Shown piece after piece: positions 44 to 20,580 of a DNA stretch of 25,186 nt. The stretch's first letter is position 1. Every line of letters begins with the position of its first letter. The translations under genes and the position numbers were made by a program. The stretch covers positions 1 through 25,186 of the forward strand of contig JBFMHD010000011.1 in the NCBI GenBank assembly GCA_040752395.1. Direction: 5' to 3'. The notes below the pieces were generated by a model. That model was not told the origin of the DNA and made no database searches. It saw only the letters and a program-made list of their open reading frames with translations. Source of the DNA: JBFMHD01 sp040752395 [NCBI: Candidatus Hydrogenedentota bacterium]. Lineage in GTDB: Bacteria > JBFMHD01.

Positions 44-188
44 CCTCCTCTGAAAAACATTGTAATTATAATGATATCAAGTAGAAGCAAGAAGCAAGAT
101 AACGGAAGAAGTGAGAAGTATCAGGAGAGGCTACAGGCTACGGACTACAGCTGGCTGGAGCCAAAAGCCCGGAGTCTGAAGGCTGGAG
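44..188 (-). repeat. Word-repeat leader unit in the hpf-ptsN spacer
   Basis: The spacer starts on the plus strand with CCTCCTCTGAAAAAC (44-58), whose complement supplies the ptsN ribosome binding site. It continues with an AT-rich piece (TTGTAATTATAATGATATCAA), then a GAAGCAAGAAGCAAGATAAC purine-rich word, a GGCTACAGGCTACGGACTAC word, the palindromic AGCTGGCTGGAGCC piece, and GCCCGGAGTCTGAAGG. The same blocks in the same order recur in the spacers upstream of rpoC and rplK and, in shorter form, elsewhere. No gene is visible in it. Confidence 0.85.
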
Positions 189-743
189 TCAGTCAGCTTC
201 AATCAATCCAAAATTACCATCTCCCCTTTTATACATAACACTCATACCTTCTGTCTGTGCGTTGATAAATACGAGAAATTGCTGATTAGAATTCTGTAAT
301 TCAATCATAGCGTCTTCAGGAAACATCGGTTTCAATGAATAATTATTATTTTTAATTATTCTTGTAGATTTAGATTCATCTTCTTCTTTAATATCTATTT
401 CTCTTATTGGTTCTATTCTTTCTTCTTCTCCACGATGTTTAATCTTTTTTACCCTTTTATCTTTCATTTTTTCATTTTCTTTTTTCAATTTGTTTTCGAT
501 TATATCTACAAGTAAATCGATAGCCGAATACATACCGTCTGTTGAAATTTCTTTACAATAAATTTTAGTTATTCTGGTTTTTAAATGTGCTTCAGCAATA
601 TTAGACTGTTTTATTCTGCTCAGAGTTATAGTAGTATTAATTATCTGGGGTATGAATCTATCGAGTCTTGCAAACTTTTTTTCAATATAATTAGTTAATG
701 ATTTTGTAACCCGTAGATTTCTGCCTGTAATTTTAATATTCAT
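189..743 (-). CDS. hpf: Ribosome hibernation promoting factor, long form
   Basis: The 184-residue protein has the S30AE (HPF/YfiA) fold at residues 1-95, opening with MNIKITGRNLRVT and the helix segment YIEKKFARLDRF. A charged linker rich in E, K and D follows at about 96-128. The C-terminal dimerisation domain runs from about 137 to 184 and includes KPMFPEDAMIEL, FLVFINAQTEG and YKRGDGNFGLIE. That two-domain layout defines long HPF, which pairs 70S ribosomes into inactive 100S dimers in resting cells. The start ATG at 743 has AGAGGAG nine bases upstream; an out-of-frame ATG four bases earlier is ignored. It lies between rpoN and the ptsN start, the classical rpoN neighbourhood. The stop TGA runs into the word-repeat spacer. 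Confidence 0.95.
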   Translation of the reverse strand: MNIKITGRNLRVTKSLTNYIEKKFARLDRFIPQIINTTITLSRIKQSNIAEAHLKTRITKIYCKEISTDGMYSAIDLLVDIIENKLKKENEKMKDKRVKKIKHRGEEERIEPIREIDIKEEDESKSTRIIKNNNYSLKPMFPEDAMIELQNSNQQFLVFINAQTEGMSVMYKRGDGNFGLIEAD

Positions 744-750
744 GCATGAT

Positions 751-879
751 CACTCCTCTGAAAGCAAGAAGCAAGATAACGGAAGAAGTGAGAGGTATCA
801 GGACAGGCTACAGGCTACGTACTACAGCCGGCTGGAGCAAAAAGCCCGGAGCCTGAAGCCCGAAGAGGCCGTGGTCTGC
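751..879 (-). repeat. Word-repeat leader unit in the rpoN-hpf spacer
   Basis: On the plus strand the spacer reads CTCCTCTGAAAGCAAGAAGC, then the ATAACGGAAGAAGTGAG word, TATCAGGACAGG, the GGCTACAGGCTACG word, the palindrome CAGCCGGCTG, and AAGCCCGGAGCCTGAAGCCC. It is a shortened copy: the AT-rich TTGTAACTCTAATAAT block seen in other copies is missing, so the Shine-Dalgarno end joins the AAGCAAGAAGC word directly. The proximal end provides the hpf ribosome binding site. No promoter of the sigma-54 GG/GC type was recognised. Confidence 0.85.
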
Positions 880-2298
880 CTACTCATATACTTTACGTTT
901 ATGTGATGGTAGAATTTGTAGTTGTTCTCTATATTTTGTTACTGTGCGCCGCGCAAGATTAAATCCGTGTCGTTTTAAAATATTGACAATCTTCTGGTCT
1001 GAGAACGGATGTTTTACGCTTTCTCTTGCAATAATATCTTTTATCACAGCCTTTATAGATTTTGATGATGCATCAATACCTTCATCTGTATGGATACTGG
1101 ATGAAAAAAAATATTTTAATAAAAAAACACCTTTTGTGGTCTGTACATACTTATTTGCAGTAACTCTGGAAACAGTTGATGGGTGCATTTCTATATCTTC
1201 AGCTATCTGTCTTAAAGTCAATGGTTTTAATGCCCTAACACCATCTACTAAAAAATCCTTTTGCATTTTAAAAATACTCTCAGTGACTTTATAAATAGTA
1301 GTATTTCTCTGGTGAATAGTTTTTATAAGCCATAAAGAACGCCCAAGTTTTTCTTTAAGATAACCTTTTAATTCTTTTGAGATATTTTTTGATTTCAGCA
1401 TATTAACATATTTATTGTTTATATTTAAATTAGGAATCCACTCACTATTAACCATTACCATAAGTTCTCCATCAAGGATCTGAACACTCACATCTGGGAT
1501 AACGTAAGTAATTTCCTGTGATAGAAATTGTCTTCCCGGTCTTGGCTCAAGTTTCGAGATCTTATTTATAGCTTCTTTAAGAGCATCCATTCGTATTTTT
1601 AACGCTGTAGCTATCCGAGGCAGCCTGTTTTTTTCGAGGTCTGAGAGGTGATTTTCAACTATCCGGTATGCCCAGGAATCAACCTCACCTATATTTTTCA
1701 ATTGTATCAATAAACACTCTCGCAAATTAGAAGCTCCAACACCTACGGGCTCAAATGTTTTAATCAATTCATGTATCTCGATAAGTTTTTCTATCTTAAC
1801 GCCTATGCTCTTTGCAAGAGGTTCGTAATCACCTCTGAAATAACCGTCATCATCAATAGCACTAATTATAGCCTCACCTGCTTTAAATTCTACCGGGTCA
1901 TCTGTTGCTATTCTTAACTGCCACATTAAATGTTCGGATAAACTTTCACTTTTTGTTAAAGCCTGCTCGAAAAATACTATGTCTTTGTCCTCTCTTTCAC
2001 TGCGAACGTATGTATCATTCCAGCCTGATGATTCAAAAATTCTCTCCCATTCTTGTTCAGGGTCACCAACCTCAGTTGCTATCTCATCCTGTTTTTTATC
2101 AGTTACGATTCTGTCTTCTTCAATAATTTCATCATCTATAACCGGGTTTTCTTCTAATTCGTCTTTTAGATAGTCCATCAGCTCCATAGAAGTCATCTGC
2201 AATATTTTTAAAGCCTGATGCATCAATGGTGTTATTACAAGCTGTTGCCTGAGATCAAGCCTCTGAATATTATCTAATTTTTGCATGCTTTTAGGCAT
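880..2298 (-). CDS. rpoN: RNA polymerase sigma-54 factor (RpoN)
   Basis: The 472-residue protein matches sigma-54 over its whole length. Region I is glutamine/leucine rich (QRLDLRQQLVITPLMHQALK, about 12-31), followed by ELEENPVIDDE and an acidic region II. The core-binding domain follows, with the FEPVGVGASNLRECL segment. The helix-turn-helix segment LRQIAEDIEMHPSTVSRV lies near residue 370, and the RpoN box ARRTVTKYRE lies at 449-458, so both -12 and -24 recognition elements are intact. Sigma-54 directs polymerase to promoters opened by AAA+ activators; no activator is present here. The gene starts 21 bases after the rpoC stop with GAGG as ribosome binding site, so it is probably co-transcribed with core polymerase genes. 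An in-frame ATG at codon 5 is an alternative start. Confidence 0.97.
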   Translation of the reverse strand: MPKSMQKLDNIQRLDLRQQLVITPLMHQALKILQMTSMELMDYLKDELEENPVIDDEIIEEDRIVTDKKQDEIATEVGDPEQEWERIFESSGWNDTYVRSEREDKDIVFFEQALTKSESLSEHLMWQLRIATDDPVEFKAGEAIISAIDDDGYFRGDYEPLAKSIGVKIEKLIEIHELIKTFEPVGVGASNLRECLLIQLKNIGEVDSWAYRIVENHLSDLEKNRLPRIATALKIRMDALKEAINKISKLEPRPGRQFLSQEITYVIPDVSVQILDGELMVMVNSEWIPNLNINNKYVNMLKSKNISKELKGYLKEKLGRSLWLIKTIHQRNTTIYKVTESIFKMQKDFLVDGVRALKPLTLRQIAEDIEMHPSTVSRVTANKYVQTTKGVFLLKYFFSSSIHTDEGIDASSKSIKAVIKDIIARESVKHPFSDQKIVNILKRHGFNLARRTVTKYREQLQILPSHKRKVYE

Positions 2299-2319
2299 AT
2301 ATACCTCAAATCAAGGTAC

Positions 2320-5300
2320 TTATTCAACTTTTACGGTTTTTGCTTCAGCTTTCTTTTCTTCTTCTTTTTTCTTTTCTTCTAAAATTTTCTCCACTTCTTC
2401 TTTTCCCTCAAATTCAAAATCCACATCTCTGTATCCTCTAAACCCTGTACCGGCAGGTATAAGATGTCCTATGATAACGTTTTCTTTTAAGCCAAAAAGC
2501 TCATCTTTTTTACCTTTAATAGCGGCCTCGGTTAAAGCCCAGGGTGTTTCCTGAAAACTGGCAGCACTTATAAAAGATTCAGAATGTTTGCTAACATTTG
2601 TTATGCCTTTTAATAAAATCTCATATTTTGCCGGCTTTGCTTTTTTCTCTTTCTTTACTCGTTCATTCTCCTGTTTCAATACATAGCTATCCACTTCCTC
2701 TCCTTCAATAAATCTTGTATTTCCGGGATCAGTAATCCTTACTTTTCTCATCATCTGTTTAACAATAACCTCAATATGTTTATCATTAATATAAACACCT
2801 TGTTGTTTATAAACATCCTGAATTTCTTTTACGATGTATCTCTGTACAGCCATTTCACCCTGTACTTTTAACATAGTATGTAAATCTATTGGGCCATCAG
2901 TGAGTGGGTCGCCTGCTTCGACATAATCACCTTCATTAACAATCAATTGTTTCTCCATTGGAATTTTATATTCTCTGGTCTCATCAATTTCCTTGTTAAC
3001 AATTTTTATAGTTCGTTTGAGGCTAAAATCATCTGGTACTTCTACCTCACCTTCTATCTCAGTTACGATAGCTGGGTCAGTTTTTGGTTTTCTAACCTCA
3101 AAGAGCTCTTCAACTCGTGGTAACCCTGTTACTATATCCTGGGTTATGCCTCTCTGCCTGCCTGCGCCCTCTCCTCTGCGGCCAAATTTAAAAAAGTCAG
3201 AGAACTGTTTTGTTAATAATTCGTTCTCTTCGACCCTTAATTTTTCTTTAGCTGTATTGATTAGTTTATGTTCGATAGTTTCGATTTCATCAAGTTTTGA
3301 TATATTGGGAACATTATACTCGGAGTATTCAAAATCATATTTATGTTTTTTAATTGAATCCTTATCCTCAACTCTTTTTATATCAAGTTCCTGAAGTCTA
3401 TTTTCTAAATCTTTATGTATTTTTTCATAATCTTTGAAAGTTGTAGGATTCATAACATTTGTCTTTGAGATAAGCTTTATAATGCTCTTTTTAATTTTTG
3501 AAACCTTTTTTATGGTACCGGTTGTTGTTCCTGTATATCTTAGATATGGTAATGGGTACTTCTCCATATCTTCAACAATCCGAAGAATAGTTATTCTGTT
3601 ATCACCGCTCTTTGTTTTATAGGTTCTTATAAAATATGCTCTTCCCTTAATATCAGAGACCACGTTCTCACTGAGTTTTGTTCCGAGATCAACCTCTTCA
3701 CCGTCTTTTATCTTTACTTCTCCTCGTAATAGAAAGTCTTTACCCTTCCAGACAATAATCGTTCCCTGCTCAGTTTCTCTGCCTTGCTGCACTTCGGGTC
3801 GAATAACACTGTATTCGTTGTGTTCTTTCTGAAGTTGAACATTATATACTTCAATCATTCCATTTATTTTGGTGAAGATAGGTTTATAATTTGGATTTTC
3901 TCCAATAATTTGACTAATCTTAACATCGTTCCCTATCTTTATTCTTAATTCTGAGCCTATAAACATCATCGCTTCCACAAGTCTCTGTCTCTGAATAATA
4001 CCCGAGATCGGTTCCTCACTCTCACTTATTAAAAGAATAACTCTTTTATCTTCTTTTTCTTCTATCTCAACTTTTGAACAAAAATTCGTTTTGAAGTCTC
4101 TGTAAGCTATAGTACTACCTTTATCGATCTCTTTACCAATCTCAATATTTTTCTCAAAGGTAATCGGTATTCTAAAAGCATAGTTCTGTCCTTTTGATTG
4201 TATCAGTACAGTATCGAGATGGAACTGAGCTACTTTTCCATTATAGGGAGATATGTAATCTATCCTCACAACGGGTTTATCAATGTCAACTCTATCTCCA
4301 TTTTTAACAAGTATCTTCACTTTCATATTACTATCAAGTCCTTGTTCATAGGTTCTTCCTTTTGAAGTCAAAAAATTTATCTGTTTATTATCAATAGTAA
4401 TTCTACCAATTCTTTTACCGAGTATATAATCTTCTCCTACAACCGGTTCGCTACCATCCTTTTGTTTTTTTGTTACTGGCATTTTAGTAATTCTTCCATT
4501 AAACAAGGCTCTGACAAAATTATCTTCAACACTTGCCACACCGCCGACGTGAAACGTACGCAAAGTTAATTGTGTACCCGGCTCGCCTATGGATTGGGCT
4601 GCTATAATTCCTACAGCTTCACCTGCTTCAATCATTCTACCCGTACCTAAATCTCTACCATAACATTTTGAACATATACCTCTTGGTGATTCACAGGTTA
4701 AGACAGACCTGGTTTTAATCTCTTCTACGCCAGCATTACTTATTTTTAGGGTTTTTTCCTCATCTATCAATTCACCTGCTTTAACTATCACTTCATTTGT
4801 TATTATATCAATCACATCTTCAAGCGCAACCCTGCCCGCTATCTTATCAAAAAAAGACTCATCTTCAGTTTTTAAATCTCTGATAGATATTGTTAATCCT
4901 TTGAGTGTTCCACAATCTTCTTCTATTACAATAATATCTTGAGCGACGTCTACAAGTCTTCTTGTAAGATAGCCGGCATTTGCTGTTTTTAATGCGGTAT
5001 CGGTTAATCCTTTTCTTGAGCCACTTGTTGATTGATAAAACTCATAGACAGATAAGCCTTCACGAAAATTTGAGATAATCGGGATCTCTTTTACCTTACC
5101 ACTCGGATCAGCCATCAATCCTCTCATCCCTGCAAGCTGTTTTATCTGATCCTTACCACCTCGCGCGCCTGAGATAGCCATAATATAGATGGGATTAAAC
5201 CCGCTATAGGAAATCTCCATTTCATCTAACATGAGTCTTGAGACCTCTTTAGTAGTATGTTCCCAGATGTTTACAAGCTTGTCATATCGTTCACCATCAC

Positions 5301-7242
5301 TTATTATCCCCTTTTTATATTGCTCATTGACTTTGAAAACCTCATCATTGGCTCTCCTGATTAAATCGTTCTTTAATTTTGGTACTAACATATCAGTTAC
5401 ACCAAGAGATATCCCTGATTTTGTTGAATAATAAAACCCTAAATCCTTTATCGCATCAGCAACCTTCACCGTCTCATCAGCGCCATATTCCAGAAATATG
5501 TCATAAATAAGTTTATTTAAATCTGCTTTCCCAAATAATTTATTTTGAAAGCTATATCCTTGCGGTAAAATATTATTGAACACTATACGACCAACAGTAG
5601 TCTTTATTAATTTACCATCCAGTTTTACTGAGATAGGAGCATGGATTGAAATTATATCTTCGTCTAATGCTCTTAATGCTTCATTCTTACTTGCAAAAAT
5701 TTTGTTAGTGCCTTTACTGCCTGTTTTTTCTTTGGTAAGATAATATATCCCAAGCACAATATCCTGGGTTGGTCCGATTATTGGTTTTCCATTGGCTGGA
5801 GATAAAATGTTGTGTCTCGATAACATCAGGAGTTCTGCTTCCATTATGGCTTCTTTAGATAAGGGAACATGAACAGCCATCTGGTCACCATCAAAATCAG
5901 CATTAAAAGCGACACAAACTAAAGGATGTAATCGTATAGCTTTACCTTCAATTAAAATCGGTTGAAATGATTGGATACCCAGTCTGTGAAGCGTAGGGGC
6001 TCTGTTTAAAAGTACCGGATGCTCTTTAATCACCTCATCAAGCGCATCCCACACCTCATCCTTCTCCTGGTCAATATATCTTTTAGCACTTTTTATATTA
6101 CTCACTATGTCTTTTGCAACCAGTCTATGCATAACAAAAGGTGTGAATAATTCAAGTGCCATCTTTTTAGGTAACCCACACGCAGAAAGCGGTAATTCGG
6201 GTCCAACAACTATAACAGATCGGCCTGAATAATCCACACGTTTACCCAGAAGGTTCTGCCTGAATCTACCCTGTTTACCTCTTAACATATCAGTTAATGA
6301 TTTTAACGGCCTGTTAGCTGAACCAAGAACTTTCCTGCCTCTCCGACCATTGTCAAACAATGCATCAACTGCTTCCTGTAACATTCTCATCTCATTTCTT
6401 ATAATTATTTTCGGGGCCTTTAATTCCTTTAGCCGTTTTAATCTATTATTTCTGTTTATCACTCTTCGATACAAATCATTCAGATCAGACGTGGCAAATC
6501 TACCACCATCAAGCTGTACCATAGGCCTTAAATCAGGTGGTATCACAGGAATAACATCAAGTACCATCCATTCGGGTTTATTCCCACTTTCAAGAAAAGC
6601 CTTTATAAGTGCAAGTCTTTTAGAAAGCGACGGTGCTTTTTGTTTAGAGGAGCTCTTTTCAATTTCATCTAAAAGTTCCTTCTTTTCTTTTTCTAAATCA
6701 ATCTTTTTTAAAACCTCTTTAATACCCTCAGCACCGATACCAACAACAATATTATCACCCCATTCATTCTTCTTTTCTTCGTATTCCTCTATTGAAATCA
6801 AAGATTTAACAGGTTTATCCGTAATTTGAGACTCAATAACAATATATTTTTCAAAATATACAACACGTTCAAGTTCTTTAGCAGGTATGTCAAGTAGTAT
6901 GCCTATTCTTGATGTTGTACCTTTGAGATACCATATATGCGTAACCGGGGCGACAAGTTTAATATGTCCCATCCTTTCCCTTCGCACTTTGGAATGTGTT
7001 ACCTCTACTCCGCAACGTTCACATCTTACACCTCTATATCTTATAGTTTTAAGACTGCCGCAGGAACATTCCCAGTCTTTTATACACCCGAAAATCTTTT
7101 CACAAAATAATCCGTCCCTTTCAGGTTTAAGTGTTCTGTAATTAATTGTTTCTGGTTTTTTAACCTCGCCATTAGACCAGGTAATAATCTTTTCTGGCGA
7201 GGCAAGTTTTATACTGATAGCCGCTACATTTCTTGGCTCCAT
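2320..7242 (-). CDS. rpoC: DNA-directed RNA polymerase subunit beta-prime with large trigger-loop insertion
   Basis: The start chosen is ATG at 7242 ([13 protein letters not shown]), preceded by AGAGGAGG, giving 1640 residues; an upstream in-frame extension into the repeat is unlikely. Seen in order: the zinc ribbon with Cys59, 61, 74 and 77; lid/rudder and clamp segments; [20 protein letters not shown]; the catalytic NADFDGD motif at 447-453; the second zinc site Cys777, 850, 857 and 860; and the bridge helix/trigger-loop start [19 protein letters not shown]. The trigger loop resumes only at 1366 ([17 protein letters not shown]), so about 465 residues are inserted. The C-terminus ends in a lysine/glutamate-rich tail. 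The subunit holds the active-site Mg of RNA polymerase. It lies 216 bases after a pseudogene that separates it from rpoB, and directly precedes rpoN. Confidence 0.98.
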
Positions 7243-7248
7243 TTTTAA

Positions 7249-7458
7249 ACCTCCTCTGAAAAACTTTGTAACTATAATAATATCAAGTAGAAGCAAGAAG
7301 CAAGATAACGGAAGAAGTGAGAGGTATCAGGACGGGCTACAGGCTACGGAGTACAGCCGGCTGGAGCCAAAAGCCCGGAGCCTGCTGAAAAGTCTTGAGT
7401 CTTGAGTCTTGAGTCCTGTTTTGACTCACGACTTGCGACTTGTGACTCACGACTCTTT
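7249..7458 (-). repeat. Word-repeat leader unit in front of rpoC, with hairpin
   Basis: This spacer carries the full block series: CCTCCTCTGAAAAAC; TTTGTAACTATAATAATATC; the AGAAGCAAGAAGCAAG word; the GGCTACAGGCTACGG word; CAGCCGGCTG; AAGCCCGGAGCCTG; and then a tandem CTTGAGT word. The last word forms an inverted repeat at 7405-7433: AGTCTTGAGTC, loop CTGTTTT, GACTCACGACT, with 10 of 11 pairs matching. The far end runs into TATCATCTTTAGTTTTTCAT, which is shared with the spacers on both sides of rplL and here encodes the last residues of the nucleotidyltransferase remnant. Confidence 0.85.
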
Positions 7459-7698
7459 TTATATCATCTTTAGTTTTTCATGCTTTGTGTAGAGCGCAAA
7501 AACCCAAAAACGCAATAACCCAATAACCCAAGAACCCAAATCTACTTCCTCTTTTATAGCCATAGAAATTTTACCATAATATCTAAAAAACTCTCTATCC
7601 TCAAGACATGAACCAAATAAAAGCACCTTTTTTGTACCAAATTCTTTACTAGTCTCTATAATCTTAGCCAATTCATTTTCAAAAGTTTTCTTATTCAT
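7459..7698 (-). pseudogene. Internally deleted nucleotidyltransferase-domain remnant
   Basis: A 79-codon frame starts six bases after the rpoB stop. Its N-terminus (MNKKTFENELAKIIE, then KVLLFGSCLED) resembles the start of minimal nucleotidyltransferase-domain proteins, which have a GS motif followed by a D-x-D metal site. Here the frame passes straight from LFGSCLED to REFFRYYGKISMAIKEEVDL, which looks like the region normally downstream of the D-x-D strand. The metal-binding aspartates are therefore missing, apparently through an in-frame deletion. The last 25 residues or so (GSWVIGLLRFWVFALY onward) are encoded by AATAACCC-type word repeats and the TATCATCTTTAG block. It interrupts the usual tight rpoB-rpoC junction. 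Family assignment is by recognition only; it is probably non-functional. Confidence 0.55.
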
Positions 7699-7704
7699 TA
7701 TTCA

Positions 7705-11259: not shown

Positions 11260-11265
11260 ATAATT

Positions 11266-11517
11266 ACTCCTCTGAAAAACTTCGCAACTCTAATAATTCG
11301 GGGTACAGGCTACAGGCTACGGACTACAGCCGGCTGGAGCCCCCTATGAAAAGTCTTGAGTCTTGAGTCCTGTTTTGACTCACGACTTGCGACTCACGAC
11401 TCTTTTCATATCATCTTTAGTTTTTCATACTTTGTGCCTTTATGCCTTCCACTCCTGTCTTCTGTCTTCTGGCTCCTGTCTCCTATCTGCCTTTGTGCCT
11501 TTGTGCCTCTTGCTTCT
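11266..11517 (-). repeat. Word-repeat leader unit between rplL and rpoB
   Basis: This part of the 344-base rplL-rpoB gap holds ACTCCTCTGAAAAAC at the rpoB side, CGCAACTCTAATAATTCGGG, the GGTACAGGCTACAGGCTAC word, CAGCCGGCTG, the CTTGAGT hairpin (11359-11387, loop CTGTTTT), TATCATCTTTAGTTTTTCAT, and then runs of CCTGTCTTCTGTCTTCTGG and TTTGTGCCTTTGTGCC words ending in TCTTGCTTCT. The purine-rich GAAGCAAGATAACGG block is absent. The stretch 11359-11516 is nearly identical to 12119-12278 on the other side of rplL. No reading frame in it looks like a gene. Confidence 0.85.
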
Positions 11518-11987: not shown

Positions 11988-11988
11988 A

Positions 11989-12300
11989 AGTCCTCCTATA
12001 AAAAGAAGCAAGAAGCAAGAAGCAAGATAACGGAAGAAGTGAGAGGTGTCAGGACGGGGTACAGGCTATAGGCTACGGACTACAGCCGGCTGGAGCCCGA
12101 AGCCCGGAGCCTGCTGAAAAGTCTTGAGTCCTGTTTTGACTCACGACTTGCGACTTGTGACTCTTTTCATATCATCTTTAGTTTTTCATACGTTGTGCCT
12201 TTATGCCTTCCCCTCCTGTCTTCTGTCTTCTGGCTCCTGTCTCCTATCTGCCTTTGTGCCTTTGTGCCTCTTGCTTCTTTCGTTATCTTGCAGCTACATA
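11989..12300 (-). repeat. Composite repeat element between rplJ and rplL with inverted terminal words
   Basis: The 313-base gap has no gene. From the rplL side it holds tandem GAAGCAAGAAGCAAG, ATAACGGAAGAAGTGAGAGG, the GGCTATAGGCTACGG word, CAGCCGGCTG, AGCCCGGAGCCTG, a 12-base-arm hairpin at 12119-12149 (11 of 12 pairs, loop CTGTTTT), TATCATCTTTAGTTTTTCAT, CTGTCTTCTGTCTTCTGG and TTTGTGCCTTTGTGCC words. The two ends carry an inverted pair: 12022-12039 (GCAAGATAACGGAAGAAG) and 12274-12291 (CTTCTTTCGTTATCTTGC), matching at 17 of 18 positions. The layout resembles a small non-autonomous element or a recombined double unit. The far edge abuts the rplJ stop. Confidence 0.8.
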
Positions 12301-12810: not shown

Positions 12811-12871
12811 GAACCTGGTTCCCTCTTTCCTTGCTTTTTTCGTTATCTCTCTTTATCTTGCTTCTATCCTA
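12811..12871 (+). repeat. Short inverted copy of the AAGCAAGATAAC word before rplJ
   Basis: The whole rplA-rplJ gap consists of CTTTCCTTGCTTTTTTCGTT, ATCTCTCTTTATCTTGCTTC and a few more bases. This is the complement of the GAAGCAAGATAACGAAAGAAG word that fills other spacers. Its orientation relative to the downstream gene is opposite to the main leader units. Confidence 0.6.
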
Positions 12872-13573: not shown

Positions 13574-13593
13574 TGCTATCACCTCTTATCTAC

Positions 13594-13776: not shown

Positions 13777-13782
13777 AACTTT

Positions 13783-14286
13783 TCACACTTTCCTTAGACT
13801 TTCAAATAATTTTTTTAGCAAGAGAGCAGTCAAAACTGTTTTTTCTAATTTGCAAACGGTTCTATACATTTTTGCTGAGTCTTTTATCCATACAACACCA
13901 TCAAGAACAGCTATTCTTATAGCATTCCCTTTTTTTCCTATACTTGTTGCTTTAGGCTCTTCAATAGATTCAATTATTGCCTTAAATCCTAAAGAGCGAA
14001 CTCTACCAACTATTCTAATGACGGTTTTGGGATTATACTTAACAAACATTTCATTCTTTCGTAGAAATGCTACATAGTGGTCATCAATTGGGAATTTAGG
14101 CAACTTCAACAAATTTTTAATCAATAAAATATTATCGCCTGATTTATAAACTTCTTCCAATTCTTTCTTTATCTCAATAGGAACAGCTCGCCATGTTTCT
14201 TCTGTTGTTGAATAAATATTATGAAGGTTATCTAAATAGCCAGGCGAATTGGCTATTTGAATACTTTTTCTTACCCATTCGTTCAT
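13783..14286 (-). CDS. Putative type II restriction endonuclease, probably internally deleted
   Basis: The gene overlaps the methyltransferase stop by four bases (ATGA), the usual coupling of restriction-modification pairs. Its 167 residues begin MNEWVRKSIQIANSPGYLDN. They include KFPIDDHYVAFLRKNE (about 64-79), NPKTVIRIVGRVRSLGFK and EEPKATSIGKKGNAIR. They then jump to AVLDGVVWIKDSAKMYR and TVLTALLLKKLFESLRKV. The first and last thirds resemble N- and C-terminal parts of some type II endonucleases, as far as can be judged by recognition. No PD-(D/E)xK catalytic motif is visible in between, and the length is short for such enzymes. An internal in-frame deletion of the catalytic core is therefore suspected. 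An alternative is a small endonuclease of unrecognised fold. Its target site cannot be predicted. Confidence 0.5.
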   Translation of the reverse strand: MNEWVRKSIQIANSPGYLDNLHNIYSTTEETWRAVPIEIKKELEEVYKSGDNILLIKNLLKLPKFPIDDHYVAFLRKNEMFVKYNPKTVIRIVGRVRSLGFKAIIESIEEPKATSIGKKGNAIRIAVLDGVVWIKDSAKMYRTVCKLEKTVLTALLLKKLFESLRKV

Positions 14287-15437
14287 TTGTTTTCTTCCTG
14301 TATTTTATATAGTACGAAAGCAGATAGGTTATTAATTGACAAAAGTTTTTTCTGTGCCACATCTATCGCTATTTTAGAATTATCAATTCCAATCCATCGT
14401 CTACCCAGTTTTTCTGCAGCAATTAAAGTCGTTCCAGAACCAACAAAACAGTCTAAAATCAAGTCATCTGGTTTTGAGGATGTTTCTATAATAACCTTAA
14501 GCATCTCCAGATTTTTTTCAGTTGGATAAGAAGGATAAGGATGGTCTTTGAATTCCCAAACATCTTGTCTTTTCTTGCCTTTTTTGACTGCTTCTTCTGC
14601 ATAGTATATTCTTCTGGGATTACCACTTGAAGACCACTCAATTAACCCTTGTTCATCTAATTTATCTAATTCTTCTGGAGGATATTGCCAATGGCTACCC
14701 TTTGGGGGTTTGCGTCCTTTCCACTCTTTTCCTGTTGGTCCATTTAAAGTCTCTCCAGGAGCATGGAGAGGGAGGGTGGTATAATATCTACCATCTTTAT
14801 CAAGCTTTGGGAATAGAGTTTTAATCTGGTTTTCTGTAAATTTCTCTCGCTGGTCGTTCCAGAGATATTTATGAGTCTTTGAATAAAAAAGAATTGAATC
14901 TGTCATATTTCCATAAGCCTTTCTCTTGAAGCTCTTTGGATTGCATTTTATTTTTGTTATGTTATTAATAAATCGTTCTTGTCCAAAAATTTCATCCATC
15001 AGAACTTTCAAATAATGACACATCTTCCAATCAATATGAACATATATTGAACCATCATTCGATAATATTTCCTTGAGAAGAATTATTCTTTTTCTCAAAA
15101 ATTCAATATATTCTGCTCCTACAAGTCTATCGTTGTATGCGGTATCATCTTGTCTACTCTTACTTACTGTTCGTGAAATTCCACTTTTGAAATCCTGGTT
15201 TGTCCCAAATGGAGGGTCTATATATACCAGTCGGATTTTCCCTTTGATGTTTGTGTCTTTTATTAAAGCTTCTAACATTTGTAAATTATCTCCCCAGATT
15301 AGCATATTGCACCACCCATCAAGCCTACTCTTACCAAAACTTTTGATTTCTTTGAGAGTAATAGCAGATGTAATGGTAATAACTCTTTTCAAATCTTCTT
15401 TATCCTTATATTGTAATGCTGTACTGTTGTTTGCCAT
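14283..15437 (-). CDS. Site-specific DNA methyltransferase, N6-adenine/N4-cytosine type, beta class
   Basis: The 384-residue protein has motif IV (IDPPFGTNQDF; DPPF at 74-77) ahead of motif X (YPTEKNLEML, about 304-313) and motif I (LDCFVGSGTT, 328-337, binding S-adenosylmethionine). That order is the beta class. HIDWKMCHYLKVLMDEIFG is a conserved segment of this family. DPPF more often goes with adenine-N6 or cytosine-N4 methylation; the base and site cannot be told from sequence alone. The middle (about 160-290) should contain target recognition. The start ATG at 15437 has AGAGGAAATAAG upstream and lies 58 bases after the rplK stop. The gene and its partner replace the normal short rplK-rplA junction, so they are presumably transcribed with the ribosomal operon. 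Confidence 0.9.
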   Translation of the reverse strand: MANNSTALQYKDKEDLKRVITITSAITLKEIKSFGKSRLDGWCNMLIWGDNLQMLEALIKDTNIKGKIRLVYIDPPFGTNQDFKSGISRTVSKSRQDDTAYNDRLVGAEYIEFLRKRIILLKEILSNDGSIYVHIDWKMCHYLKVLMDEIFGQERFINNITKIKCNPKSFKRKAYGNMTDSILFYSKTHKYLWNDQREKFTENQIKTLFPKLDKDGRYYTTLPLHAPGETLNGPTGKEWKGRKPPKGSHWQYPPEELDKLDEQGLIEWSSSGNPRRIYYAEEAVKKGKKRQDVWEFKDHPYPSYPTEKNLEMLKVIIETSSKPDDLILDCFVGSGTTLIAAEKLGRRWIGIDNSKIAIDVAQKKLLSINNLSAFVLYKIQEENK

Positions 15438-15495
15438 CTTATTTCCTCTGTCTTCAATCCAAGATATAGCAGAATTTCAGATAACTGATGAATTA

Positions 15496-15924
15496 CTAAA
15501 CCTCTACCTCGACTCCCATGCTTTTTGCGGTTCCTGCAATCATACTTGCGGCTTTTTCAATATCAAAAGCATTCAAGTCTTTCATCTTCTGCTCTGCAAT
15601 CTCATATAAATCCTTTTTACTAATTTTCCCTACCTTTGTTCTATTAGGTTCTCCTGATCCTTTCTCAATTTTAAGTTTCTGTCTGATTAAAACAGCAGCG
15701 GGCGGTGTTTTTAACTCAAAAGTAAATGATTTATCTTTATATACTGTTATAATTACAGGTATCACTGTCTCTCCTTTATCTTTTGTTGCTTCATTAAAAG
15801 CTTTACAGAACTGCATTATATTTATGCCCTTCTGACCTAACGCCGGGCCGATAGGTGGTGCTGGTGTTGCTTTTGCCGCAGGTATTTGCAATTTTATATA
15901 GCTGTCAATATCTTTAGATACCAT
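15496..15924 (-). CDS. rplK: 50S ribosomal protein L11
   Basis: The 142-residue protein is a complete L11. The N-terminal domain carries [20 protein letters not shown] and [19 protein letters not shown]; the C-terminal rRNA-binding domain has [18 protein letters not shown] and [20 protein letters not shown], and ends with [15 protein letters not shown]11 sits at the GTPase-associated centre and is needed for stringent-factor signalling. The start ATG at 15924 has AGAGGAG from the leader repeat. nusG lies upstream and the modification gene downstream, where L1 is expected. Confidence 0.98.
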
Positions 15925-15928
15925 AAAT

Positions 15929-16002
15929 ACTCCTCTGAAAAACGCTGTAACTCTAATAATTCGGGGTACAGGCTACGGGCTACGGACTACAGCCGGCTGG
16001 AG
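15929..16002 (-). repeat. First (gene-proximal) leader unit before rplK
   Basis: CTCCTCTGAAAAACGCTGTA and CTCTAATAATTCGGGGTACA lead into the GGCTACGGGCTACGGACTAC word and CAGCCGGCTGGAGCC. It belongs to the short class lacking the GAAGCAAGATAAC block, like the units before rpoB and ftsA. It provides the rplK ribosome binding site. Confidence 0.85.
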
Positions 16003-16172
16003 CCTCCTCCTCTGAAAAACATTGTAACTCTAATAATATCAAATAGAAGCAAGAGGCAAGAAGCAAGATAACGGAAGAAGTGAGAGGTATCAGGACGGGC
16101 TACAGGCGTAGGCTGCTGAAAAGTCTTGAGTCCTGTTTTGACTTATGACTCGCGACTTGTGGTCCACGACTG
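16003..16172 (-). repeat. Second, tandem leader unit between nusG and rplK
   Basis: Directly behind the first unit a second copy begins with TCCTCCTCTGAAAAAC, here not next to any start codon. It goes on with ATTGTAACTCTAATAATATC, the AGAAGCAAGAGGCAAGAAGC word, ATAACGGAAGAAGTGAGAGG, a truncated GGCTACAGGC word and the CTTGAGT hairpin (16121-16151, loop CTGTTTT, arms less perfect than in other copies). It ends next to the nusG stop. It is of the long class. Confidence 0.85.
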
Positions 16173-16175
16173 ATT

Positions 16176-16712
16176 TTACACTTTTTCTACTTGTAAAAAA
16201 TCAAGTTCAACAGGTGTTGCACGACCAAAAATAGTCATCATTACCTTTAATTTATTTCTGTCTAACTCGACTGCTTCTACCGAACCTATAAAATCCTTGA
16301 AGGGACCATCTATAACTTTGACTTTGTCACCCGATGCGTACCTTACCTTTGGTTTTGGTTTTGGTCTGCCATCAATTAATCCTGCATTTTTTAATGTTTC
16401 TTTAACTTCATCTTCATCTAAAGCCGTAGGTTTGATACCAGGACCTACAAAATTAGTTACACCTGGTGTATTTCTTACAACTGCCCAGGATTCATCATCC
16501 ATCTCCATCTCAACAAGAACATATCCTGGGAAAAATTTTTTTTCAGTTATTACTTTCTCGCCATCTCTCATCTCTGCTATCTCTTCTGTTGGTATAAGAA
16601 TTCTAAATATCTTATCCTCCATCCCGAGCGATTGAATCCTTCGTTCAAGATTAGACTTAACTTTATTCTCATAACCAGCATAGGTATGAATAACGTACCA
16701 TTTTTTTAACAT
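16176..16712 (-). CDS. nusG: Transcription termination/antitermination factor NusG
   Basis: The 178-residue protein has the NGN domain (WYVIHTYAGYENKVKSNLER; FFPGYVLVEMEMDDESWAVV; NTPGVTNFVGPG) and the C-terminal KOW domain (SGDKVKVIDGPFKDFIGSVE, then a segment with FGRATPVELDFLQVEKV). NusG binds the RNA polymerase clamp and links it to Rho or the ribosome. The length is standard and no domain insertion is seen. The start ATG at 16712 has AAGGTG upstream. It lies 26 bases after secE, the universal bacterial arrangement. Confidence 0.98.
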   Translation of the reverse strand: MLKKWYVIHTYAGYENKVKSNLERRIQSLGMEDKIFRILIPTEEIAEMRDGEKVITEKKFFPGYVLVEMEMDDESWAVVRNTPGVTNFVGPGIKPTALDEDEVKETLKNAGLIDGRPKPKPKVRYASGDKVKVIDGPFKDFIGSVEAVELDRNKLKVMMTIFGRATPVELDFLQVEKV

Positions 16713-16738
16713 CTTAACACCTTCTTTCGTAACCTTCC

Positions 16739-16966
16739 TTATGCTAAAAATCTAAAAATAATCTCTAAAAGAGAAGCTATCGCCCAATCAAGAAGACCGA
16801 TATAAACTAATCCTATGGCGAACAGGGTCAATAATATCACAATCGTAGCACTCTTTATCTCATCTTTTGATGGCCACGTCACTTTACCTTCAGGATATTT
16901 TACCTCAACCCATACTTCTTTTAAAAATTGTTTTGCTTTATAATAATACTCTTTGACCTTGTTCAC
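16739..16966 (-). CDS. secE: Preprotein translocase subunit SecE
   Basis: The 75-residue protein has the SecE amphipathic segment (AKQFLKEVWVEVKYPEGKVT), the signature WPSKDEIKSATIVIL, and one membrane span at about 40-70 (TLFAIGLVYIGLLDWAIASL). SecE clamps SecY in the inner-membrane export channel. The start codon is GTG at 16966, chosen because GGAG lies six bases upstream and the family's charged N-terminus follows (MNKVKEYYYKA). It sits between tRNA-Trp and nusG as in many bacteria. Confidence 0.95.
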   Translation of the reverse strand: MNKVKEYYYKAKQFLKEVWVEVKYPEGKVTWPSKDEIKSATIVILLTLFAIGLVYIGLLDWAIASLLEIIFRFLA

Positions 16967-17069
16967 TCTGTGCTCCAGTTGTCGCTATGCTCCATTGTGT
17001 ACTCTTTTTCACCAGTTCGGTAGAAAAATTTGCCTGTTTAAAGGTAATCCTTCAATCCTTCGGTTATAG

Positions 17070-17095
17070 GTGGCAGCAAGAAGCAAGAGGCAAGA
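17070..17095 (-). repeat. Isolated GCAAGAAGCAAGAGGCAAG word upstream of secE
   Basis: A single short stretch of the purine-rich word seen in the leader units, inside the 188-base gap between secE and tRNA-Trp, without the other blocks. The rest of that gap shows no gene. Confidence 0.6.
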
Positions 17096-17154
17096 TAAAA
17101 AAACCAACCAAAGACTTGAAAGGATACGGTTCAAATCCCTTAACTTTTACTTTA

Positions 17155-17227
17155 CAGGCCCGGAGGGATTTGAACCCCCAACCCGCGGTTTTGGAGACCG
17201 CTGCTCTACCAGTTGAGCCACGAGCCT
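17155..17227 (-). tRNA. trnW: tRNA-Trp (CCA anticodon)
   Basis: The coding strand folds into a full cloverleaf of 73 bases. The acceptor AGGCTCG pairs with CGGGCCT (one G-U pair) and is followed by discriminator G. The D arm contains GGCTCAACTGGTAGAGC, the anticodon arm CGGTCTCCAAAACCG has anticodon CCA, and the T arm is GTTGGGGGTTCAAATCCC. The 3' CCA is not encoded. Its place between rpmG and secE matches the conserved arrangement in many bacteria. Confidence 0.95.
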
Positions 17228-17238
17228 TTATTTTGCAG

Positions 17239-17258
17239 TGAAATGCTTTAGCATTTCA
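17239..17258 (-). other. Perfect hairpin upstream of tRNA-Trp
   Basis: TGAAATGC and GCATTTCA form an 8-base perfect stem around a four-base loop (TTTA on the plus strand). It lies 11 bases before the tRNA 5' end and lacks a following T-run, so it is not a typical terminator. A role in processing the rpmG/tRNA transcript is possible. Confidence 0.6.
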
Positions 17259-17270
17259 TCATAATATATC

Positions 17271-17290
17271 GTGTCGCACTGACGCGACAC
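17271..17290 (-). other. GC-rich hairpin between rpmG and tRNA-Trp
   Basis: GTGTCGC and GCGACAC form a 7-base perfect stem with a 6-base loop, about 40 bases after the rpmG stop. No T-run follows on either strand. A weaker CCTCC/GGAGG stem lies just before it at 17310-17325. Confidence 0.6.
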
Positions 17291-17328
17291 ATACATCTCA
17301 AAACAAGAGCCTCCACGGATGGAGGAGC

Positions 17329-17478
17329 TTATCGGGTCTCTTTATGAACCGTATGTTTTTTACACCTCGGACAATATTTCTTTAACTCGATCCTCTCAGA
17401 ATCTTTAGTCTTGTTTTTCATACTTGAATAATTTCTCTCTTTACATTCAGTACATTCTAAAGTTATAATTACTCTCAT
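17329..17478 (-). CDS. rpmG: 50S ribosomal protein L33
   Basis: A 49-residue protein starting at ATG 17478 reads [20 protein letters not shown], then [20 protein letters not shown] and KHTVHKETR. Two Cys pairs (CTEC and CPRC) show the zinc-binding form of L33. L33 is a small protein of the large ribosomal subunit. AAGGTAAG lies about ten bases upstream as a modest ribosome binding site. It is the first gene of the rpmG, tRNA-Trp, secE, nusG run. Confidence 0.95.
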
Positions 17479-17667
17479 ATCAGCTACTTACCTTAACACA
17501 TAAAATACTTCCCAATTTTCAATCTTTAATTTGCCATTTTAAGATTTGTAAAGAATATTCTCTAATATATTAATATTGTCTATAACAATAAATAGTAATC
17601 CTAATGATATATAAAATAGAATGATTTTTCTTTTTAATTACTAATTACTACTTTTCTCAGGCTTTTA

Positions 17668-17696
17668 AATATTTTAAAATTCTATAAATTTGTCAA
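17668..17696 (-). promoter_or_regulatory. Candidate sigma-70 type promoter for the rpmG-secE-nusG operon
   Basis: On the coding strand a perfect -35 box TTGACA (17696-17691) is followed after 17 bases by AATATT (17673-17668), which matches four of six bases of TATAAT. It lies about 190 bases upstream of rpmG in the only long non-repetitive gap of the window. A second, weaker pair (TAGACA, 17 bases, AATATT) lies closer to rpmG at about 17557-17585. The 411-base gap holds no gene. Confidence 0.45.
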
Positions 17697-17753
17697 GTCT
17701 TTTTATAGAGGTCTCTTTTAAAACCTCATTTTTTAAAGACAGCTCTAAAGTCT

Positions 17754-17779
17754 AAAGAACGGGTCTTGTGACCCTCTTT
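17754..17779 (-). terminator. Candidate terminator behind ftsZ
   Basis: On the coding strand AAAGA-GGGTC, loop ACAA, GACCC, a two-base bulge and TCTTT form a stem of about ten pairs, 111 bases after the ftsZ stop. Only a short T-run (TTCTTTAGACTTT) follows, so efficiency is uncertain. The near-symmetrical outer arms would also fold on the other strand. Confidence 0.4.
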
Positions 17780-17889
17780 ACATTATATTGATTATATTGA
17801 AAATACAAAAAATAAAAGATGTAGTGAGCATCTTTAGATGCGACAAACTAAGTTTAAAAGAGACATCTTATAGAAAAATCTTTGATTTG

Positions 17890-19107
17890 CTACTCTGCCT
17901 TTACCTGTTCCTGACGCCTCATAAAAGCAGGTACTTCCCAATCATCACTTGCATATCCGCTTAAACCAGTTTCAGAAGGAGTGATTACGGTCTGCCTCTG
18001 TTCAGATTGAACTGTCGAGGCTGCCCTGATCGCCGGTCTATGAATAACAAAATCAGTTTTTGCAACTTTTTGTTTCTCTAAAACCTTTTGAGTACCAATT
18101 ACTGTTGGGAATTGATGTACTGTTTTCTTTACTGCATGGGCTTCACGTGAAATACCTGTGGCAATAACCGTTATCTTTACAGTGTTCGTATAGTTTTCAT
18201 CTATTACCTGACCCCAGAATATGTTTGCATCTTCGCTTGCAGAATCAGTTATGATAGATAAAGCTTCATTGAGTTCATTAAGAGTAAGTTCTTTACCACC
18301 GGTGACATGAACAAGGATACCTTTTGCACCTTCAATAGATATATCTTCAAGTAAAGGACTTGCTATGGCCTGTTGTGCTGCTGTGACAGCTTTATTATCA
18401 CCTGTAGCCTGACCGATACCCATTAATGCATCACCCATCTCAAACATAACTGAGCGAACATCATTGAAATCCGCATTAACTATACCTTCAGCAAGTATTA
18501 TATCACTTATACCCTGTACACCTTGTCTTAATACATCATCAGCAAGCCTGAATGCATCAATAATCGATGTATTCACGTCTACAACTGATAAAAGCCTCTG
18601 ATTTGGAATCGTGATAAGAGTATCCACTTTTTCTCTTAAAACTCGTATCCCTTCTTCAGCCTGCCTTGATCTTCTTGCACCTTCAAAATTAAATGGTCTT
18701 GTAACAACTGCTACTGTTAAAGCGCCCATCTCTTTTGCAATTTCTGCTACTATTGGTGCTGCGCCGGTACCGGTTCCGCCCCCCATTCCGGCTGTTATAA
18801 ATACCATATGTGCGCCTTCAAGAGCAGCACTTAATTGCTCCCTGTCCTCAGAAGCAGCCATACGACCTATCTCAGGATTACCACCTGCTCCTAAACCTTT
18901 GGTTATTCTTTTCCCTATCTGAATTTTAATCGGGGCCTGGTTACTTTTTAAAACCTGAAGGTCAGTATTCGTAGCTATAAACTCTACGCCTCCAACCTTC
19001 GCTTCAATCATACGGGTAATGGCGTTACCGCCAGCTCCACCTACTCCTATAACTTTAATCTTCGTTACAGGAGTATCATCGTCGTGAAATTCAAATCTGT
19101 GTGTCAT
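17890..19107 (-). CDS. ftsZ: Cell division protein FtsZ
   Basis: The 405-residue protein is a complete bacterial tubulin homologue. The nucleotide-binding start is [19 protein letters not shown]; the tubulin signature [10 protein letters not shown] starts at 109, and the T7 loop [11 protein letters not shown] completes the GTPase site of the neighbouring subunit. A variable linker (about 320-385) precedes the C-terminal peptide [13 protein letters not shown] (388-400), which binds FtsA. FtsZ polymerises at mid-cell into the division ring. The start ATG at 19107 has AAGGAGGT eight bases upstream. It follows ftsA after 110 bases of non-repetitive sequence and is the last gene of the division cluster. 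Confidence 0.99.
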
Positions 19108-19217
19108 GTAGTGCTACCTCCTTAATTGCAAATTTTATCGTGTAATATACTACAATGCATTCATCTGCTACACTTATGCTCTTATAAGGTAATGAGGCAC
19201 AGGTGTATGGCTGTAGT

Positions 19218-20456
19218 TTAAAAGAATTCTGTAAACCATTCCTTCATTCTGTTTGTTATACTCCTGAATAGATCACCTCCTTCGAATCTTGTTTTACCCG
19301 GCATCTTATCTCTGTTTTGTAATGCATACTGGCATAAACCGACTCCTGTAGCAAACGCCGGGCTATTAACTGCATCGACTAAACCACTCACGCCTTTTGG
19401 TAACCCACAACGTATAGGTAAATCTAAAATTTTTTCAGCTAATTGTGGTGTGCCCTGCATCGCAGATGCACCACCTGTTATCACCATCCCAGCTGCTAAC
19501 ATATCCTCATAGCCAGATTGCTTTATCACCCTGTTTATTAATTCGAAAATTTCAGCCATTCTCGGCTGTATTATTTCTACTAATACTTTTCTTGGAAGCT
19601 TTCTCGTACTTCTACCACCTATACCCGGTACCTCAATATTTTCTTCTGCTGATACAATGTCCTCAATCGCACAACCATACTCTTTTTTTATCTTTTCAGC
19701 TTGATCAGGCGGAGTCCGAAGTCCTACTGAAATGTCTTTTGTTACATGACCCCCACCTATTGTAAGAACTTCGGTATGCCATATAGCACCATTTAAAAAT
19801 AAACAGATATCCGTGGTGCCGCCACCAATGTCAACCATTGCAACGCCTAACTCCTTCTCATCATTTGTTAAAACAGCAGAACCAGAAGCAAGCGGGTCAA
19901 GAACTATATCCTCAACCCCAAACCCCGCACGGGTAATACTCTTTATTATATTCTGTACTAAACTAACAGCAGCTGTTACAATGTGTACCTCAGCCTCTAA
20001 TCTCACACCTGTCATACCAACCGGGTTCTGTATGCCTTCCTGGTCATCAATTATAAACTCTTTCGGTAAGACGTGAATCACTTCTCTATCAAGAGGAATA
20101 GAGATGGCTTTTGCTGCATCTATTACTCTCTCAACATCTGCTGAAACTATTTCGCGGTCAGGTCTGCTTACCGCTATAACACCACGACTGTTTAATCCTT
20201 TTATATGTCCTCCTGCAATACCCGCATAAACAGACTCAACCTCTACACCGGCCATTAGTTCTGCTTCTTCTATTGCTCGAGTTATTGATTTAACAGTACT
20301 CTCTAAACTTACAACCACTCCCTTGCGTAACCCTTCAGAAGGCGCTACTCCAACACCTATTATCTCGGCCTCTCCATCACTACCTTGTTCTGCAATAATT
20401 GCGCATACCTTGGTTGTTCCTATATCAAGCCCTACTACAAAATCTCTTTCTGCCAA
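19218..20456 (-). CDS. ftsA: Cell division protein FtsA
   Basis: The 412-residue actin-like ATPase begins MAERDFVVGLDIGTTKVCAI (phosphate 1 motif). The SHS2-type 1C domain has VESVYAGIAGGHIKGLNSRG, and phosphate 2 is VDIGGGTTDICLFL. The adenosine region is visible as AAGMVITGGASAMQG. The C-terminal amphipathic helix FRSITNRMKEWFTEFF is the membrane-targeting sequence that ties FtsZ filaments to the membrane. The start codon is TTG at 20456, supported by AGAGGAG eight bases upstream; no ATG is available nearby. It precedes ftsZ. Confidence 0.98.
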   Translation of the reverse strand: MAERDFVVGLDIGTTKVCAIIAEQGSDGEAEIIGVGVAPSEGLRKGVVVSLESTVKSITRAIEEAELMAGVEVESVYAGIAGGHIKGLNSRGVIAVSRPDREIVSADVERVIDAAKAISIPLDREVIHVLPKEFIIDDQEGIQNPVGMTGVRLEAEVHIVTAAVSLVQNIIKSITRAGFGVEDIVLDPLASGSAVLTNDEKELGVAMVDIGGGTTDICLFLNGAIWHTEVLTIGGGHVTKDISVGLRTPPDQAEKIKKEYGCAIEDIVSAEENIEVPGIGGRSTRKLPRKVLVEIIQPRMAEIFELINRVIKQSGYEDMLAAGMVITGGASAMQGTPQLAEKILDLPIRCGLPKGVSGLVDAVNSPAFATGVGLCQYALQNRDKMPGKTRFEGGDLFRSITNRMKEWFTEFF

Positions 20457-20463
20457 AAGTAAA

Positions 20464-20580
20464 TCTCCTCTGAAAAACTTCGCAACCCTAATAATTTGGG
20501 CTACAGGCTACAGCCAACTGGAGCCTGGAACCCAAAGCTCAAAGCCAACATATCATCTACATTTTGCTTCTACATATCAT
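20464..20580 (-). repeat. Word-repeat leader unit before ftsA
   Basis: TCTCCTCTGAAAAACTTCGC, then AACCCTAATAATTTGGGC, a short CTACAGGCTACAGCC word, AACTGGAGCCTGGAACCC, and TATCATCT words. It is of the short class without the GAAGCAAGATAAC block and is more degenerate than the copies in the ribosomal operon. It supplies the ftsA ribosome binding site. Confidence 0.8.

Follow-up and report, generated by a model that had tools for sequence, protein, structure and literature searches.

In a stretch of 25,186 nucleotides from the Candidatus Hydrogenedentota bacterium JBFMHD01 sp040752395 (contig JBFMHD010000011.1, positions 1 to 25,186, hereafter the window), the leaders of several core growth genes share a dispersed intergenic repeat whose 3' edge is the Shine-Dalgarno (SD) sequence of the gene that follows. 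Copies of the repeat keep a common order of modules, share junctions, end at the SD, stand in tandem before rplK, have a 7-bp periodicity and lie in the gaps between genes. We favour, with moderate confidence, the reading that this is a family of operon spacers that carries a translation-initiation cassette as its 3' module, and that cassette and spacer have been copied jointly between leaders.

Results

The shared string and its cassette

A pattern search of the whole window finds the plus-strand string CTCCTCTGAAA exactly seven times, at 45, 753, 7251, 11267, 15930, 16007 and 20465; the original prediction, made by reading the sequence alone, had placed these copies correctly to within 2 bases. 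Allowing one mismatch gives eight matches against 0.63 expected, a number reached in 0 of 100 shuffles, and the eighth match, at 1830, lies within rpoN. The count for GTTTTTCAGAGGAG with up to three mismatches (nine matches against 3.6 expected, reached in 2 of 100 shuffles) is less telling than the exact copies. The reverse complement of the string, TTTCAGAGGAG, is its sense form, and six of the seven copies end 5-9 nt 5' of the starts of ptsN, hpf, rpoC, rpoB, rplK and ftsA, which bears out the predicted position, that of a putative ribosome binding site (RBS). The seventh copy (16007) also belongs to the rplK leader, 77 bp upstream of the copy at 15930. Pfam identifies hpf, rpoB, rplK, ftsA and rpoC, while ptsN, of which 12 codons lie inside the window, is a candidate name taken over from the earlier reading. 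When seven copies are thrown onto the non-coding DNA of the gene strand, at least six fall at starts with P=1.6e-8, under a null of 20 starts and an SD distance of 4-10 that ignores selection for SDs.

An AT-rich block adjoins the string in six copies, that is, in the five gene-adjacent copies for which it had been described and also at 16007; the hpf copy is without it, again as described. These six copies extend to a 31-nt cassette in which 23 of 31 positions are invariant and the final 14 nt show no variation. The shared sequence stops at GAGGAG, and the next base is G in three copies (ptsN, rpoC and distal rplK, the A-type copies described below, which therefore read GAGGAGG), T in rpoB, proximal rplK and hpf, and A in ftsA. 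A weight matrix built from the six AT blocks, which favours the sites it was trained on, scores these at 35-42 bits and the next site in the window at 6.1 bits. Because the cassette sites stand so far above any other site, the string is more than a common SD context lacking an adjoining block, an explanation that the original prediction had itself raised.

Anatomy of the larger unit

A larger modular intergenic unit of 100-300 nt, largely 7-bp periodic, has the cassette as its 3' end. An alignment of nine upstream regions gives its order in the sense direction as a GAGTC/GACTC heptamer pair, a GC-rich module centred on AGCCGGCT (present at 8 places in the window), a pyrimidine array CACTTCTTCCGTTATCTTGCTTCTTGCTTC, the AT block and finally TTTTTCAGAGGAG, and the copies differ in which internal parts are missing. 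In A-type leaders (ptsN, rpoC and distal rplK) the pyrimidine array is present, whereas in B-type leaders (rpoB, proximal rplK and ftsA) it is missing and the GC-rich module is joined directly to AATTATTAG. The junction of CCCG with AATTATTAG, together with the SD, is common to rpoB and proximal rplK, and ftsA has a diverged junction in which CCCA precedes AATTATTAG. The ptsN and rpoC leaders are 93% identical over 138 nt and the rpoB and rplK leaders 92% over 86 nt, the diverged ftsA form reaching 69%. In the hpf leader the array is fused to TCAGAGGAG and the AT block is missing. The rplK leader contains an A-type and then a B-type unit in tandem, the B unit being flanked by two cassette copies and the outer SD left stranded. 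Because two or three unrelated genes share the junction between unit and cassette, and because the rplK units are in tandem, spacer and SD were probably copied as one. The shared junctions with the SD, the stop at GAGGAG and the tandem rplK units make a unit that brings its own RBS the best supported of the three readings first put forward.

Two gaps, rplL-rpoB and rplJ-rplL, share 159 nt at 97% identity (11359-11517 and 12120-12278). The sequence GCAAGATAACGRAAGAAG is an arm of the larger unit and occurs at 5 sites on the plus strand and 4 on the minus strand. Both orientations are present in the rplJ-rplL gap, where they form a 25-nt inverted repeat, 88% complementary and 220 nt apart, and the remaining three minus-strand arms lie directly upstream of rplJ, nusG and murG. 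With the arm found on both strands, the repeat taken in full has no single direction. The remark that the copies always have the same orientation is correct for the string itself but carries less weight than it seems to, because every identified gene is on the minus strand and gene orientation is inseparable from DNA strand. The original interpretation is in part supported; what it missed is that the block forms the 3' border of a family of largely 7-bp-periodic spacers, 100-300 nt long, which includes the units before rplL and ddl and is similar to a known class of heptameric intergenic repeats.

Periodicity, placement and gap length

Identity at a lag of 7 bp is in excess in eight unit-bearing gaps (z 2.2-11.2), and most of these have a second peak at lag 14. 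Among the controls, the ftsZ-rpmG gap gives z 1.4 and four 600-nt coding stretches give at most 1.1 (coding reaches 3.5 at lag 6). Period-7 runs are numerous in these gaps and short, about 2-5 units, with many of them degenerate, and much of the similarity is that of a collinear unit shared between loci. Arrays of 7-bp repeats cover 420 of the 3837 non-coding bases of the window, against 29 of the 21349 coding bases. Next to them stand arrays with an 8-bp period, of the CAAAAACC and TGCCTTTG types, at 7497-7540, 11488-11508 and 12249-12269.

Modules of the unit occur in 8 of 13 gaps longer than 100 bp (8 of 12 before a correction of the rpmG coordinates, which makes the rpmG-trnW gap 101 bp). 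Those without modules are R-rplA, trnW-secE (which has a short 7-bp run only), ftsZ-rpmG, ftsA-ftsZ and rpmG-trnW; from its gene content, ftsZ-rpmG is probably a boundary between transcription units. Terminator-like hairpins are found in ftsZ-rpmG (one) and rpmG-trnW (two), and such sites decide little because they are about as numerous overall as in shuffles (10 against 8.4, standard deviation 3.3; 6 against 3.8, standard deviation 1.9).

The rpoB-rpoC gap is 462 bp long, against 40-133 nt in 16 of 17 other loci, according to rough alignment-based estimates, which start at the first aligned residue and therefore err on the long side; in the seventeenth locus (752 nt) rpoC is probably cut by the contig end. 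Within this gap an open frame of 79 aa on the minus strand (7459-7698), upstream of the unit and running into it, may be a gene remnant. Its sole Pfam match is DUF5751 at an E-value of 0.13, and an identity as a nucleotidyltransferase is unsupported by Pfam.

Distribution in other genomes and loci

When the non-coding excess at lag 7 is scored in 61 sequences, the window is highest (0.092), followed by L043 (0.073), L003 and L052 (both 0.062) and L039 (0.037). The source of L043 is G006, a groundwater metagenome-assembled genome titled Deltaproteobacteria and unrelated to the window genome. Many gaps of the G006 division cluster contain heptamer arrays, several of them as inverted pairs. In a G006 sample of 20 stretches (L107-L126, about 307 kb of 2.3 Mb), 7-bp arrays are present in 33 of 133 gaps between co-directional genes; the counts are 3 of 25 for convergent and 0 of 22 for divergent gaps (Fisher p 0.006 for co-directional against other gaps). 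The corresponding figures in 79 other loci are 5 of 344, 2 of 78 and 0 of 78; all of these gap-type counts rest on crude calls of open reading frames (ORFs). The shared SD cassette is absent from the G006 sample, where the 11-mers most often seen before possible starts are plain A-rich SDs, found at 4 of 280 ORFs. Because G006 has heptamer spacers without the SD cassette, the two are separable, and the cassette is a peculiarity of the window. The arms show no purine/pyrimidine asymmetry in G006 (0.50 against 0.52), in contrast to those of the window (0.57, n=3, against 0.36, n=5). When the loci L001-L080 are pooled, the 11-mer seen most often before possible starts is found at 11 of 1083 ORFs; these are the same genes from related genomes, so that the figure was not used as a control.

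RpoB was searched in 7 genomes and in 198 of the phylum of G001 (188 matched), RpoC in 32 genomes (30 matched), and FtsA in genome contigs (best 80 matches) and in 297 genomes of the phylum of G006 (293 matched). Among the matches listed there is no close relative of the window genome: the best long protein matches are 59% for RpoB, 61% for RpoC and 62% for FtsA, with shorter pieces at 64-69% for RpoB and 63-70% for RpoC. In viral contigs the core of the cassette has one match, which by eye appears to lie in coding sequence and is read as chance; three other patterns of the unit gave no match there, and an RpoB search found no relative. The rplK leader, the sole query tried against plasmids, had no match.

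Discussion

Proposed origin and spread of the unit

Long spacers within an operon probably uncouple translation of the downstream gene from that of the upstream gene, and each downstream gene would therefore need an SD of its own. We suggest that operon-spacer elements, built of degenerate 7-bp repeats that are partly in inverted pairs, fill many of the long gaps between co-directional essential genes, and that their 3' module ATTATTAGAGTTACAAAGTTTTTCAGAGGAG acts as a translation-initiation cassette consisting of a short A/U-rich stretch, U5 and then the SD. Cassette and spacer may have been copied between leaders by duplication or recombination, perhaps recombination between leaders that already shared modules, with the SD as shared sequence at the border. 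Since it ends in an SD, a copied unit would be tolerated before a start codon and could be placed there, the rpoB-rpoC gap included, while the gene stays expressed. The gaps are presumably transcribed through and the SDs used, and the role of the cassette would be translational rather than that of a promoter.

A more far-reaching form of this proposal, which we regard as possible but doubtful, is that the unit is an intra-operon spacer able to spread by itself, with an RBS of its own and the SD as a recombination seam, so that any leader with GGAG can accept it and the new SD replaces the old. If this is true, the unit could colonise even the rpoB-rpoC junction with function kept intact, and would rewrite the translation signals of core operons. 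A class of dispersed DNA would then spread by carrying the translation signal of the next gene and in this way enter essential operons. The heptameric spacers of several bacterial groups, which are poorly explained, would gain a concrete means of persistence, and recombination between leaders could alter or homogenise the expression of several core genes together.

Several observations weigh against the favoured reading. All cassette-specific evidence comes from one 25-kb window whose identified genes are all on one strand. The units upstream of rplL and ddl have other SDs (ATAGGAGG and CGAGGGAG, respectively) and lack TTTCAGAGGAG; they could be further deletion derivatives of the unit. The lag-7 signal of the ftsA gap is the weakest among unit-bearing gaps and is exceeded by that at lag 13, and a stricter criterion leaves a 7-bp array in 5 of 11 window gaps. 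By the same alignment-based estimates, some unit-bearing gaps are of ordinary length: rplL-rpoB measures 344, compared with 81-327 in 11 of 12 loci and 1260 in the remaining one, which is the same cut contig as above, rplJ-rplL at 313 is unremarkable beside 171-429 in 9 loci, and ftsQ-ftsA at 259 is not clearly longer than the 10-250 of 17 loci. Two overlapping terminator-like sites lie in the unit-bearing rpoN-hpf gap. RNA folding does not point to an SD held open by the cassette (for the SD window, a mean unpaired probability of 0.16-0.73 in the six string-bearing genes against 0.28-0.80 in ten others), and the alignment of the GC-rich module is without RNA covariation.

Alternative explanations

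To chance, acting through a common SD context alone, we give almost no credence. AGGAGG-like SDs do precede several other genes of the window, but their contexts differ, the AT block scores 29 bits over the next site, and an 11-mer is shared before five window ORFs (the truncated ptsN uncounted) against at most two in each of 98 other loci (L001-L098, many of them shorter than the window); the weight-matrix gap and this control together led us to reject it. An unlikely but more substantial alternative is that the unit carries a promoter, in the array or in -10-like hexamers of the AT block (TATAAT, TATAGT or TAGAGT), and is a duplicated or mobile promoter with RBS that gives each core gene its own transcript. 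Long gaps are natural locations for additional promoters, TATAAT in ptsN and TATAGT in rpoC occupy the same cassette columns, and the pyrimidine array of the rplL unit contains, on the gene strand, a sigma-70-like 9-of-12 site (12052-12024). The hexamer, however, decays to TAGAGT and TAGGGT in other copies, and there is no common -35 because the sequences upstream of A- and B-type cassettes differ. Scans of 1-8000 and 10500-25186 list no sigma-70 consensus promoter on the six AT blocks (one weak row of these scans is not shown), and promoter-like totals are near those of shuffles (61 against 46.6, standard deviation 6.7; 24 against 27.3, standard deviation 6.0). Antisense 9-of-12 promoter-like sites recur in the GAGTC module (plus strand 7440, 11387 and 12148). 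The lack of arrays in the 22 divergent gaps of the G006 sample also speaks against a promoter.

The original prediction had offered two further readings. One, a shared regulatory leader in which the conserved 31 nt serve as the binding site of a protein or small RNA that coordinates rpoB, rpoC, rplK, hpf, ptsN and ftsA, we consider quite unlikely. Positive support for it comes from the gene list, in which genes of transcription, translation and division have the cassette in common, and the invariance of the last 14 nt in six long copies is also in its favour. Yet the distal rplK relic is just as intact, so that conservation of the cassette may reflect recent copying, and the neighbouring core genes nusG, rplA, rplJ and ftsZ are without it. 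Neither a consensus promoter on the blocks nor covariation speaks for such a leader, and a regulon or riboswitch was rejected on the same lack of covariation in the GC-rich module and on a search of the window with Rfam, in which tRNA (tRNA-Trp) was the only family matched at gathering score. The other, a mobile unit that targets RBSs, would take the form of a miniature inverted-repeat transposable element (MITE), non-autonomous, moved by a transposase and preferring insertion at ribosome-binding sites, and seems to us decidedly improbable. Dispersed modules, an arm in both orientations, the 25-nt inverted repeats of the rplJ-rplL copy and the 159 nt common to two gaps are what such an element could leave. 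The inverted ends are confined to that one copy, however, and copies vary by internal gaps and lack clean ends. By eye no target-site duplication is apparent in the leaders, the repeat flanking the B unit of rplK being the cassette itself, and no transposase is found among the 20 window proteins scanned. The related modules before rplL and ddl, which occur without TTTCAGAGGAG, give no support to targeting either.

Coordinates and neighbouring genes

Positions of the cassettes, units and arms in the window
Feature	Position	Strand	Basis
31-nt AT block and SD cassette before ptsN, A-type	45..75	-	weight matrix, cassette alignment
Upstream unit of ptsN: GC-rich inverted-repeat module and pyrimidine heptamer array	76..190	-	alignment, periodicity
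SD string TTTCAGAGGAG of hpf, AT block absent	753..763	-	pattern search, alignment
Upstream unit of hpf: GC-rich module and pyrimidine array	764..879	-	alignment
Cassette of rpoC, A-type	7251..7281	-	weight matrix, cassette alignment
Unit in the 462-bp rpoB-rpoC gap: GAGTC/GACTC heptamer pair, GC-rich module, pyrimidine array	7282..7478	-	
Cassette of rpoB, B-type, without pyrimidine array	11267..11297	-	weight matrix, alignment
Unit of the rplL-rpoB gap, including the 159-nt stretch 97% identical to the rplJ-rplL gap	11298..11517	-	
Unit of the rplJ-rplL gap; 25-nt inverted repeats 12022-12046 and 12267-12291; rplL SD ATAGGAGG	12003..12291	-	
Opposite-orientation arm upstream of rplJ, 3 mismatches	12834..12851	-	arm search
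Proximal cassette of rplK, B-type	15930..15960	-	weight matrix, cassette alignment
B-type GC-rich module separating the two rplK cassettes	15961..16006	-	alignment
Distal cassette of rplK, stranded SD	16007..16037	-	weight matrix, cassette alignment
A-type upstream unit of the distal rplK copy, GC-rich module partly missing	16038..16165	-	alignment, periodicity
Opposite-orientation arm upstream of nusG, 3 mismatches	16721..16738	-	arm search
Cassette of ftsA, B-type, diverged; start codon TTG	20465..20495	-	weight matrix, cassette alignment
Diverged GC-rich module upstream of ftsA	20496..20545	-	alignment
Diverged unit before ddl, 3' end CTTTTTTCGAGGGAG, possibly a decayed cassette	22451..22582	-	
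Opposite-orientation arm upstream of murG, 2 mismatches	25121..25138	-	arm search

Within the ribosomal-protein cluster, a restriction-modification pair lies between rplK and rplA (13783-15437, minus strand) and consists of a Tsp45I-like endonuclease ORF and an N6/N4 DNA methylase. The endonuclease ORF has 167 aa; its best stretch matches positions 1-113 of a 260-position profile, and a second stretch is matched too. RpoC (2320-7242, minus strand; Pfam) has 1640 aa, compared with about 1365-1480 aa for complete-looking frames of relatives, and a stretch of roughly 400 residues (about 920-1360) is unmatched in most relatives compared. From 15496 to 25104 on the minus strand, the division cluster from murG to ftsZ is directly joined to rpmG-tRNA-Trp-secE-nusG-rplK on the same strand.

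Comparison with known repeat classes

Putative mobile promoters (Matus-Garcia 2012) are reportedly recognised as homologous sequences of 50-100 nt upstream of unrelated genes, the class being defined by promoter content. The rpoB/rplK and ptsN/rpoC leaders have such homologous upstream sequence, but a consensus promoter was not detected on the cassette. The open-licence literature surveyed contains no description of a repeat that has an SD at its border; as evidence of absence this is weak.

Among small interspersed repeats, BOX, RUP and SPRITE of the pneumococcus are described as able to insert into one another, and BOX is modular with a variable number of modules (PMC3049150). They have terminal inverted repeats, and BOX and RUP have target-site duplications, neither of which is shown for the window unit; an SD at the edge is a feature of the window unit that the cited parts of that report do not mention for them (PMC3049150). 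BrickBuilt of Porphyromonas gingivalis is described as a minisatellite MITE of 23-nt units (PMC4596501). The window element is likewise dispersed, near genes and contains tandem repeats, but the repeated unit of BrickBuilt is 23 nt and sits in a MITE (PMC4596501).

Closer parallels are found among heptamers, which in a survey by Mrazek and colleagues, as reported in PMC4679880, are the commonest repeat category in most genomes, with polymerase slippage as the proposed origin. The TAACTGA direct repeats of marine Beggiatoaceae stand directly before start codons, including those of some ribosomal-protein genes, and a translational role has been proposed for them (PMC4679880). According to the same account the TAACTGA repeat covers part of the site where an RBS would be expected, with few canonical SDs next to it, whereas the window unit contains an SD; tandem TAACTGA occurs 0 times on either strand of the window. 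The GGGNATC heptameric repeats of Xanthomonas and Nostoc are reported to be intergenic, to favour aligned ORFs, often within less than 50 bp of starts or stops, to show strand asymmetry and to be mostly transcribed (PMC4692102). Tandem GGGNATC or GGGGAYT is not found in the window. The window units resemble the GGGNATC repeats in being 7-bp and outside genes, but the latter are presented as simple arrays of a consensus heptamer able to form G4 structures (PMC4692102), in contrast to the degenerate heptamers in inverted pairs seen here, and the window has in addition a long collinear unit shared between loci with an SD at its 3' edge. Heptameric intergenic repeats are an established class, of which the window looks like an unusual variant.

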